Assembly: GCA_028289585.1 (NCBI GenBank)
Contig: JANQPI010000020.1
Location: 222,039-286,038 of the forward strand
Direction: 5' to 3'
Length of the DNA stretch: 64,000 nucleotides
Origin: Candidatus Zixiibacteriota bacterium
Lineage (GTDB): Bacteria; Zixibacteria; MSB-5A5; GN15; FEB-12
The notes below the pieces were generated by a model, which did not search any database, was not told where the DNA came from, and worked only from the letters and a program-made list of their open reading frames with translations. Each line of letters opens with the position of its first letter. Positions within the stretch are counted from its first letter, which is position 1. Of the stretch, positions 20,963-25,922 are shown in pieces. A program made the position numbers and the translations under genes.

Positions 20963-22021
20963 ATGCGACGCTATCATCATGAAGTTGGTCGAGCCCCCGG
21001 CGAACTCAGTTATCACGGGACACGACCCGACGCAACTCCTCGTATCACCGTACGTTCATTCGACCACACCAACCTCAACACTCGGACAATTACCGACCTG
21101 TCCGAATTGCCTCGTAACTTCCGAAATGGTCATGTGGAATGGGCTCATGTCGAAGGGTTAGCCGATGTCGGACTTGTCCAGTTGATCGGAGATCACTTCG
21201 GGATTGGATCGCTCTTTCTTGAGGATGTCCTGGCTCGCGATCTACGACCGACGATCGCCATCGAACCCGATTACGGATTTGTCACAATCCGCCTGCTCGA
21301 CACGACTGATGCATCGCAAGTCGGGGAGCATCTTGCTATCGCCTGGGGAACCGGCTGGATTGTCAGTTTCTCCGATCTGCCAATCGCTGATCTGGAACCG
21401 GTTATCGCTCGGCTGGCTCGCACGGTGCCGCGGGAGCGAATGATTCACAGTGACTATCTGGCCTACGCCATGATGGATGCGCTGGTCGACCGGTATCTGG
21501 CCGAAACCGAAGCGCTCATGGTTGCCGCCGATCACCTCGACGATCCAGAGTCGATTGAGCAGGGGAATCCAATGCCGGCGATTGCTGATCTTAAGCAGCA
21601 TACCGCCTCGCTCCGCCGTATCAGTCTACCCCTACGGGAGGTCATCCACACGCTCCAACGTGAAGACAGTGCTCTGGTCAGCCAGATTACCCGCCCGTAC
21701 CTGGACGATCTCCTCGACCACACCCACGCTGTTCTCGACTACTGCGAAGCGACTCGGGACACGTTGACCGCAGCTCAGGAACTCTATCAGGCCCACCTGA
21801 GTCAGCGCATGAATGAGGTCATGAAAGTGCTCACGATCATCGCGACCATCTTCATTCCGCTCTCATTTTTAGCGGGGGTGTTTGGAATGAATTTCGATTC
21901 GTCGTTACCGGGCAATATGCCGGAACTACGAATTCCGTATGGCTATGTGGGATTCTGGATCGTTGCGCTGCTTATGGCCGTGGCGATGCTGTTAATCTTC
22001 AGGCGCAAGCGCTGGCTATAA
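20963..22021 (+). CDS. corA: CorA-family divalent cation transporter
   Basis: A 352-residue member of the CorA/MIT family. It has a long cytoplasmic domain with helical stalk, then two C-terminal transmembrane helices bracketing the signature GMNF (GVFGMNFDSSLPGNMPEL), ending in a basic tail (RRKRW). It conducts Mg2+ or related ions. It starts 59 nt after lysS with no strong promoter seen. Its stop overlaps the stop of the convergent downstream gene by 6 bp. Confidence 0.88.
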   Translation: MRRYHHEVGRAPGELSYHGTRPDATPRITVRSFDHTNLNTRTITDLSELPRNFRNGHVEWAHVEGLADVGLVQLIGDHFGIGSLFLEDVLARDLRPTIAIEPDYGFVTIRLLDTTDASQVGEHLAIAWGTGWIVSFSDLPIADLEPVIARLARTVPRERMIHSDYLAYAMMDALVDRYLAETEALMVAADHLDDPESIEQGNPMPAIADLKQHTASLRRISLPLREVIHTLQREDSALVSQITRPYLDDLLDHTHAVLDYCEATRDTLTAAQELYQAHLSQRMNEVMKVLTIIATIFIPLSFLAGVFGMNFDSSLPGNMPELRIPYGYVGFWIVALLMAVAMLLIFRRKRWL

Positions 22022-22273
22022 CGACCAGAAGTGCTGCTCGAGGGTCCTCGCAATATCGTCGAGCGACGGATACGACCGCTTGGTGTCGGTCCGAGACTTG
22101 GTTCGCCGATCGGACAGCTCCTGACCATTGATGACGAGACGTGGCGAGGGAACGGTTGAGTCAATTTCATTGATTCGCGCACAAAGCCCGCGCTCACGGA
22201 CGAACTTCAGGATGAAATCCCGTGTCTTGAGATGCTTTGGATCCCGTTTTGAGTAGATCAGATCGATATCCAT
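22016..22273 (-). CDS. Small thioredoxin-fold-like protein lacking CxxC
   Basis: An 85-residue protein beginning MDIDLIYSKRDPKHLKTRD, with TVPSPRLVINGQEL, which resembles the cis-Pro strand of glutaredoxin/ArsC-type folds. The only Cys is Cys31, so a classical redox CxxC is absent. The start at 22273 is preferred over an in-frame start at 22348 because a GGGAG lies upstream and the fold begins there. It lies next to selD on the same strand but is not in its operon, because selD ends at 22606. Confidence 0.55.
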   Translation of the reverse strand: MDIDLIYSKRDPKHLKTRDFILKFVRERGLCARINEIDSTVPSPRLVINGQELSDRRTKSRTDTKRSYPSLDDIARTLEQHFWSL

Positions 22274-22605: not shown

Positions 22606-23655
22606 TCACCGTAACCGTATTTCCGGCTCTCCCGCCACCACCCGGGCGATTTCTGCCGACGTCAGTCCCGCCGCGGCCAACGCCCGGCCACACGCCTGCG
22701 CTGATTCAGTCGGCACGGCGATGAGCAACCCACCGGATGTCTGGGGATCGATCAGGACCTCCAGCATCGCTGTCGCGATCACGTCGTGACCTCTCAACTG
22801 CGGCTCGACAACGCGGTGCGTTTCTTTGCTCCCCCCTGTGACAACCCCGCGGTCCGCCAAAGTGAGAGCGCCATCCAAAACCGGAATCGACGACGTGTCG
22901 ACATCGATCGCGACTCCCGATCCGAGCACCATTTCGCGAAGGTGCCCGAGAAAGCCAAACCCGGTGACGTCGGTCGCGGCGGTCGCCCCGTGGGCTGTCA
23001 TGATCTCGGCGGCAGCACGGTTGAGCGTGGCCATCTGCTCGACCACCGGTTGCATCGCGGCAGCATCAATCAATTCCCGCTTGAGAGCGGTTGACATGAT
23101 TCCCGTACCCAGTGGCTTTGTCAGAAACAGTCGGTCACCAATCTGCGCTCCGGTGTTTGCAACGACCCGGTTCGGGTTCACAATCCCCGTCGCGGCAACA
23201 CCAAACTTCAGCTCGGTATCTTTGACCGAATGTCCACCGACCACCACCGCGCCGGCGGCTGTCACAACATCTGCGCCCCCCCGAAGCACCTCGGTCAGCA
23301 CCCAGGTCGGCATGCTCATCGGAAACCCGACGATGTTAAGAGCCGTAAGCGGTCTGCCGCCCATGGCGTAGATGTCAGACAGAGCGTTGGCCGCCGCAAT
23401 GCGTCCAAAATCATACGGATCGTCAACAATCGGCGGAAAGAAGTCGACTGTCTGGACCAAGGCGGTCTCGTCGTCCAAACGGTAGACACCGGCATCATCA
23501 GCGGTCGACATGTCGACCAGCAGATTGGGGTGACTGCTCTTCGGGAGCGATTCAAGTACGTCGGCCAGCACCGCTGGCCCGAGTTTGGACGCTCAACCCG
23601 CGCAGGCGACTTCCGCCGTAAGTTTGATTTCTCGGTCACGTCGTTGGTCAGTCAT
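22606..23655 (-). CDS. selD: Selenophosphate synthetase, selenocysteine-containing
   Basis: SelD makes selenophosphate from selenide and ATP, the Se donor for selenocysteine. The obvious ORF starts at GTG 23571, but the frame continues upstream through one in-frame TGA (23593-23595) to an ATG at 23655. The added sequence (KLTAEVACAG-U-ASKLGPAVLADVL) is the conserved SelD N-terminus. UGA falls at the catalytic Cys/Sec position, and Lys24 three residues on matches the essential Lys of E. coli SelD (Cys17/Lys20). A SECIS-like hairpin follows. Full length is 349 residues. C-terminal features include GGHSVKDTELKFG and TDVTGFGFLGHLREM. Confidence 0.93.
23563..23579 (-). promoter_or_regulatory. Bacterial SECIS-like hairpin of selD
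   Basis: On the mRNA strand GGCCAGC-GGT-GCTGGCC forms a perfect 7-bp stem with a GGU loop, starting 13 nt after the in-frame UGA. Bacterial SECIS elements lie directly 3' of the UGA and carry G and U in the small apical loop for SelB binding. Confidence 0.75.
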
Positions 23656-23661
23656 GGAGCC

Positions 23662-23813: not shown

Positions 23814-25922
23814 ATGGGAGAGCATTCGTCCACCGTCAGAATCGATCAGTTGCTGCTGTGGGAAGGTCTCGTAACTGAGCGCGCCATCAAAGACGCCCTC
23901 AAGTACCAGAAAGAATACGGCGGGAAAATCGGTTCACACCTGATGCGCCTCGGACACGTCTCCGAAGAGGGACTCGTTCGGGCGCTCGCCAAGCAGCATA
24001 ACTCCGACGGCGTTGTTCTGGGGAACATCGAGATCCCCGATGCGGTCATTGGATTGCTCCCCGCGAAAGTCGTTCGCGCCCGCCTTGTCGTTCCCTTCGA
24101 TTTTGTCTCAGAAGAGAACCTCCTCAAAGTCGCCTGCGAGGATCCGGGTCTGGCGGAATTGGCCGACGAACTGCGGTTTATCACCAGCGGCAAAGACGTT
24201 CGCCTCTATATCGCCGCTGAACTTGCGCTCAAATCGTCGATCATGAAGTACTACCCGCTGGCGCCGGAGACTGATCAGTCGGGTCCAATGTCGGTAGCAA
24301 ATGAATCCGCATCAGCCGGCATGGAGATCGATCCGCAGACAGGTGGAGTGGTCGCCCGACCATCCCGAGGCACAATGCTGATTGTAACCGACGAACCGGA
24401 ACTCGACCAACCGCTCACGCAGGCGCTTGCGAATGACAACTACTCCGTGGAGTTAGTCGATTCAGCCGATGCCGCCATCGATCGTGTCTCCCAGGATGTC
24501 TACAAGACGGTCTTCGTGCGCGACTCGGTACAGGGTGATTACATCGACCTGATCGATCGGGTACGCAAACGCTCGCCGGGTACGTTGGTGCGCTACTATG
24601 AATCGGCCGGGCGACTGTTGACTACCGAGATGCCGATGGAAACTGCCGACTCGGCGGTGAAGAATCTCGAATTGTTTACGTCGCTGTTGGCATCGAAAGA
24701 CAATCAGCCGAACAACCATGCTGGCACGGTTGGTATGTACTCCGACAAACTTTGCCGCCGTCTCGACATTCCGGCGAAAGAACGGCTGATGATCGTCACC
24801 GCCGCGTATCTTCACGATCTGGCAAAGACATACTACGGAACTACCGACGTAACCGATGATCGTGAAGTCGTCAAACTGACCGTTAAGCTCCTCGATTCGC
24901 TCAACTTCTCTCCCCTACTCGTTGGCATTCTCAGCAAGATGTACATCAACCTGCATGGTAAATACACCAAGCGTCTGCCGATTGAGGCGCTAGGTGGCAA
25001 CATCGTGACGATCTGCGACATCTTCTGTACCAATATGTCGACCGAGAAAAAGATATCACTCGACCGTTTCGAAGTTCTCCGGCAGAAGTTTGTCGATCTG
25101 ACCGGCAAACTCTTCTTGACTGAAGTTGTCGAAGCGTTCGTTGACATGATTCAGGATGATCTCCTTGAAGTTCCGCCACGGGGTCGGTTCAATCAGGTCA
25201 TGCTGTACTGTGCGGATGATGCCGACGCAGTGTCGTTCGAGCAGCGGCTGCGCAAGGAAGGCTTCCGAGTCGTAGCGCAATCATCGCTCGACCGCTTTGT
25301 TGAACTCTGTCATCGCGGCGAACCTGATATGATGATTCTCGTGCAAAAGGGTGAGCCGCCGCAGGTCAACGAACTGATCGACACGATCAACAACGAGCAG
25401 CTTATCAACGATGGTCTCCCTGTCTTTCTCTTGGTCGATGCCTGGGTCACACAGCATCTGACAACGATCTTTGAACGAGGTATTGAAGACCTGCTCCCGA
25501 TCGATCAGAACCTTGAGTTACTAGTCGCCAAAATGAAGAAAGTACAGGCCCGCCTGGAAAGCCGCGCACCGTCGGAAGACTACCACGAAACAACCGGCGC
25601 TGTCGGATCGATCGAAAACATGAATCTGATCGATCTGCTCCAGGCGATGGGCCCCGGCCGCAAGACCGCCCGACTGGTTGTCTCTCAGGATCAGCGGGAA
25701 CTTGAGATGTACCTGCACGAGGGACAGATCGTCTACGCTCGACTCGGCGAGCTCACTGGTCCGGACGCTGTCTACGAGGGAATCTCGTGGGCGAGCGGGC
25801 ATTGGACGACGCAACCCGTCGACGCATCAGCGATTCCTGAACCGAACAACGACCTCCCCAATGAGTCACTGCTGATGGAAGGCTGTCGACTCCTCGACGA
25901 AAAGGGTCATCAGGGCGCTTAG
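23814..25922 (+). CDS. Multidomain signalling protein: MshEN, receiver-like, HD-GYP-like, DUF4388
   Basis: A 702-residue soluble protein. Residues ~8-145 resemble the MshEN/GspE N-terminal domain (RIDQLLLWEGLVTERAIKDA, LLPAKVVRARLVVPF). ~180-285 are receiver-like (TMLIVTDEPELDQPL). ~300-450 resemble an HD-GYP domain (NNHAGTVGMYSDKLC, YLHDLAK, GNIVTICDIFC) without a clear GYP. ~460-575 are a second receiver-like region. ~580-690 are DUF4388 (GSIENMNLIDLLQAMG, GQIVYARLG). MshEN domains bind c-di-GMP, so a regulatory scaffold, perhaps for pili or motility, is inferred. An AAGGAG precedes the ATG. The stop abuts the stop of the convergent gene. Confidence 0.78.
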   Translation: MGEHSSTVRIDQLLLWEGLVTERAIKDALKYQKEYGGKIGSHLMRLGHVSEEGLVRALAKQHNSDGVVLGNIEIPDAVIGLLPAKVVRARLVVPFDFVSEENLLKVACEDPGLAELADELRFITSGKDVRLYIAAELALKSSIMKYYPLAPETDQSGPMSVANESASAGMEIDPQTGGVVARPSRGTMLIVTDEPELDQPLTQALANDNYSVELVDSADAAIDRVSQDVYKTVFVRDSVQGDYIDLIDRVRKRSPGTLVRYYESAGRLLTTEMPMETADSAVKNLELFTSLLASKDNQPNNHAGTVGMYSDKLCRRLDIPAKERLMIVTAAYLHDLAKTYYGTTDVTDDREVVKLTVKLLDSLNFSPLLVGILSKMYINLHGKYTKRLPIEALGGNIVTICDIFCTNMSTEKKISLDRFEVLRQKFVDLTGKLFLTEVVEAFVDMIQDDLLEVPPRGRFNQVMLYCADDADAVSFEQRLRKEGFRVVAQSSLDRFVELCHRGEPDMMILVQKGEPPQVNELIDTINNEQLINDGLPVFLLVDAWVTQHLTTIFERGIEDLLPIDQNLELLVAKMKKVQARLESRAPSEDYHETTGAVGSIENMNLIDLLQAMGPGRKTARLVVSQDQRELEMYLHEGQIVYARLGELTGPDAVYEGISWASGHWTTQPVDASAIPEPNNDLPNESLLMEGCRLLDEKGHQGA

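Follow-up and report, generated by a model that had tools for sequence, protein, structure and literature searches.

Selenophosphate synthetase of a Zixibacteria genome as a probable selenoprotein with an in-frame UGA at the catalytic position

Our analysis of a 64,000-nucleotide stretch of DNA from a Candidatus Zixiibacteriota bacterium (hereafter 'the window') suggests that selD, the gene for selenide, water dikinase (selenophosphate synthetase), is almost certainly itself a selenoprotein gene, in which the UGA at codon 21 would be read as selenocysteine (Sec) by way of a SECIS element and SelB. This had been proposed from the letters of the window, and it is now supported by (i) the alignment of the extended protein, (ii) a catalytic codon conserved as TGA, (iii) the covariation of a hairpin downstream of it, and (iv) the presence of the Sec machinery in the genome. 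From these data, which are all of sequence, we infer that Sec is inserted at residue 21 of an active enzyme.

The selD frame (22606–23655, minus strand; 349 residues) runs from ATG 23655 to TGA 22606 and holds a single internal in-frame TGA (23595–23593, minus strand), which is flanked by the residues VACAG-U-ASKLGPA. When the extended protein, translated through this codon, was compared with SelD families, as the original prediction had advised, it matched the equivalog model TIGR00476 with 388.2 bits (cut-off 125; residues 11–318) and aligned over its whole length with Escherichia coli SelD (PDB 3u0o; E = 5e-74). In an ungapped stretch of the latter alignment U21 falls on Cys17 and K24 on Lys20, which confirms the placement of the UGA at the SelD active site with a lysine three residues on. 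The protein is hence a member of the SelD family, and is predicted to synthesize selenophosphate. The open reading frame that conventional gene calling would report is a shorter one of 321 residues from GTG 23571 (22606–23571, minus strand); it starts inside the hairpin loop described below and lacks the active site together with the catalytic residue. Standard gene calling cuts selD short, so that its active site stays hidden.

Among 146 related genomes, 122 contain SelD. The full-length standalone copies of these relatives carry one TGA each, and the matches that lack a stop are either partial or part of long fused frames. At the catalytic codon, TGA is found in all 71 standalone Zixibacteria SelD genes checked, and the SelD genes of other phyla have TGA in 44, TGC in 25 and TGT in 10 of 79 cases; for all genes checked this amounts to TGA in 115/150 and TGC or TGT in 35/150, with no other alternative. 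An in-frame UGA at the Cys/Sec position is conserved in SelD homologues, and residues 1–20 as well as their spacing to the UGA are kept in the relatives.

Downstream of the UGA, the original prediction had described a 7-bp hairpin with a GGU loop, and this hairpin, GGCCAGC-GGU-GCUGGCC, is indeed present at 23579–23563 (minus strand): it begins 13 nt past the UGA and exposes its apical loop (23572–23570) at 20 nt. The published model of the bacterial SECIS (bSECIS) comprises a loop of 3–9 nt with a G in the first two loop positions, a stem of 4–16 bp, a UGA-to-loop spacing of 16–37 nt and a minimum free energy of −7.5 kcal/mol or below (PMC13188914). The selD hairpin lies within all of these limits (3-nt GGU loop, 7 bp, 20 nt, and −13.8 kcal/mol for the hairpin). 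At fixed position, the stem keeps on average 6.49 of 7 pairs in 71 relatives, compared with 3.87 ± 0.13 (maximum 4.30) in 500 control runs in which synonymous codons were exchanged; at the same position of Cys-type selD genes (n = 35), 2.89 of 7 pairs are formed, that is, the hairpin is absent there. Among the 68 distinct relatives, 92.4% of the cells of the stem alignment are paired, slid stem registers serving as control pair just 21–56%, and 68 cells are changed on both sides, as against 19.8 ± 3.3 in shuffles, none of 500 of which reached as high a count. RNAalifold likewise detects compensatory change in five of six predicted pairs. Taken alone, the window sequence forms a hairpin that is mildly more stable than its shuffles (z −1.63, weakly significant), and searches against Rfam, with the window as well as with 23480–23660 as query, gave no SECIS family above threshold, the best matches being chance ones. 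Support for the predicted hairpin is comparative, the fold of the single sequence not being striking, and points to an element acting as bacterial SECIS across the relatives. Based on the TIGR00476 score, the TGA in 71/71 Zixibacteria genes and the pairing of the relatives' stem relative to its controls, chance is excluded as the origin of the UGA-containing selD frame.

It had further been predicted that SelA, SelB and tRNA-Sec are encoded elsewhere in the organism. A search for selA, selB and selC located all three on a single contig (C18) of the window's genome, an assembly of 3.15 Mb in 55 contigs that is 99.6% complete and belongs to Zixibacteria: SelB (C18:161977–163836) and SelA (C18:163908–164990) are encoded by adjacent genes on one strand, and the tRNA-Sec with anticodon UCA lies at C18:175879–175971. 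Beyond this genome, tRNA-Sec was found in 114 of the 146 relatives. Six relatives that are 93–97% complete (G011, G024, G060, G065, G068 and G070) have a TGA-containing selD and no tRNA-Sec match, and some others (e.g., G025 and G044) have tRNA-Sec and no SelD match; such mismatches probably reflect gaps in the draft assemblies and the stricter search filter. Selenocysteine use appears to be widespread in Zixibacteria.

In the mechanism that we propose, SelB on the hairpin just past the UGA would deliver Sec-tRNA(Sec) to the translating ribosome, codon 21 would be read as selenocysteine and not as a stop, and the selenol of Sec21 would replace the catalytic cysteine of SelD. The enzyme would then make selenophosphate from selenide and ATP, and SelA would use the selenophosphate to make Sec-tRNA(Sec). 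Since selenophosphate is the selenium donor of SelA for Sec-tRNA(Sec), SelD would be needed for its own synthesis.

Several other explanations of the in-frame TGA have to be weighed. A single base separates TGA from TGC and TGT, and the gene might thus be a Cys-type selD whose codon was misread during sequencing or assembly; however, with the same TGA and hairpin present in 71/71 related genes from independent assemblies, and TGA present in many phyla, such an error would have to recur time and again, which makes this explanation exceedingly improbable. We see just as little chance that selD is a pseudogene, or that an N-terminally truncated protein is made from GTG 23571. Although the GTG frame is open over 321 residues, the short form would be devoid of both the catalytic residue and the equivalent of Lys20, and both the retention in the relatives of residues 1–20 and their spacing to the UGA and the covariation of the hairpin speak against this explanation.

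The frame by itself shows read-through and nothing more, so that the UGA could also stand for another amino acid, be it by a genome-wide change of the code or by near-cognate suppression. Many ordinary genes of the window end in TGA, however, and this possibility is very unlikely also in view of the conserved SelB-type hairpin and of a genome encoding tRNA-Sec, SelA and SelB. Hence, decoding of codon 21 as selenocysteine is the reading that we prefer.

Only one bacterial selenoprotein is more widespread than Sec-containing SelD. Because Sec-SelD is already well known from many bacteria, the gene of the window is an ordinary further case. It shares with bacterial Sec-SelD/SPS2 (PMC4561486, PMC1794560, PMC13188914) (i) the Sec at the catalytic position in the N-terminal loop, (ii) the conserved Lys three residues on, (iii) a bSECIS directly past the UGA, and (iv) selA, selB and tRNA-Sec in the genome. 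It differs from these systems in that its genome has no match to an FdhA selenoprotein, and in that the second Cys is located at −3 (CxxU), whereas many other SelDs have it at +2 (UxC). E. coli SelD (Cys17; PDB 3u0o) matches the window protein from end to end as a member of one enzyme family, but has Cys in place of Sec, no SECIS, and its second Cys at +2 (Cys19). The literature searched holds no report of selenoproteins in Zixibacteria, and co-mention is limited to a Zixibacteria genome in an assembly list.

The second cysteine follows a pattern of its own across the 150 SelD genes: it is found at either −3 or +2 of the catalytic Sec/Cys (residues 18 and 23 of the window protein; 23604–23587, minus strand), and in 0/150 at both positions together. 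Cys-type SelDs have it in 35/35 cases (32 at +2, three at −3), while 31 of the 115 Sec-type proteins have neither, and SelD of the window reads CAG-U-ASK, with the cysteine at −3. Only five Sec/Cys changes occurred on the tree, and the 3–5 independent pairs that they provide are too few for a tree-based test to reach significance; the pattern is a lead.

Fusions of NifS and SelD have been described for just two prokaryotic instances (PMC4561486). One relative (G074) possesses, beside its Sec-SelD, a second SelD copy that forms one protein with a NifS-like cysteine desulfurase (L250; G074:C1:2004500–2007500); this SelD copy is of Cys type (THGLG-C-ACK); the window's genome, by comparison, has the standalone Sec type alone. 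Open frames of similar length (735–766 residues) in about 20 other relatives may, judging from frame length alone, be NifS-SelD fusions as well.

More than 110 selenoprotein families are known (PMC13188914), and the original prediction had suggested that other genes of the window hide UGA codons. This was not borne out, in-frame TGA scans of the window giving no further gene that unites a coding signal, a SECIS and a redox motif. Genome-wide family searches found no TGA-bearing member of the FdhA, AhpC/TSA, AhpD-like or thioredoxin families, and neither SelW nor YbbB of any type. With a chimeric E. coli query (E 1e-3), the genome gave no YqeB, YqeC, glutaredoxin, OsmC, rhodanese, DsrE-type, DsbA or ArsC, and its MsrA, GPx-like and ErpA matches were all Cys-type. 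About 15 families were covered in this way, with BLAST-level queries that may miss distant homologues. A screen for in-frame TGA codons over 1.30 Mb (41% of the genome), requiring at least 15 codons past the UGA, recovered both of its controls, i.e., SelD and the HesB-like selenoprotein of the relative G056, and yielded nothing convincing besides SelD; C-terminal Sec (Uxx-stop) was covered by a separate scan of most of the sampled part. One GlpC-like match with two TGAs (C20:632657) was rejected, its alignment overrunning the end of an ordinary gene with two ferredoxin domains near a nuoG-like gene.

SelD as the single selenoprotein has been described for several species, all of which contain YbbB (PMC1794560). 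Since the roughly 15 families searched and the screen of 41% of the genome yielded no other selenoprotein, and since YbbB and YqeB both went undetected, one may speculate that SelD is the organism's sole selenoprotein, devoid of YbbB and YqeB/YqeC as users of selenophosphate, but we consider this rather doubtful. If true, the whole Sec machinery would be kept just for the enzyme that feeds it, or for some other use of selenium, and what maintains so costly a system would become directly testable.

Relatives have selenoproteins besides SelD, two of which were noted in G056, an order-level relative: the HesB-like protein used above as a control, with the motif GAG-U-SG (L249; G056:C1:930558) and a glutaredoxin-like protein of the Uxx-star type (L248; G056:C1:1737304), the latter scoring 111 bits against NF041212 (cut-off 66). 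YqeB belongs to the selenium-dependent molybdenum hydroxylase trait; YqeB-like matches occur in two relatives (G001:C99:4559–6123 and G054:C42:117329–118901), and none in the window's genome.

The gene next downstream of selD encodes a Cys-less protein of 85 residues (22019–22273, minus strand) with no match in Pfam or NCBIfam. Of about 30 relatives, at least 8 have a homologue (32–49% identity) close to selD, and no Cys is conserved among them. Its AlphaFold model (pLDDT 73) retrieves thioredoxin/SelW folds in Foldseek (probability 0.99–1.0; best E about 0.006–0.02). The protein may be a selenium or redox factor linked to selD. On the other side, divergent from selD, lies a gene for an MshEN/DUF4388 protein (23814–25922, plus strand); of about 30 relatives, at least 12 keep this gene beside selD.
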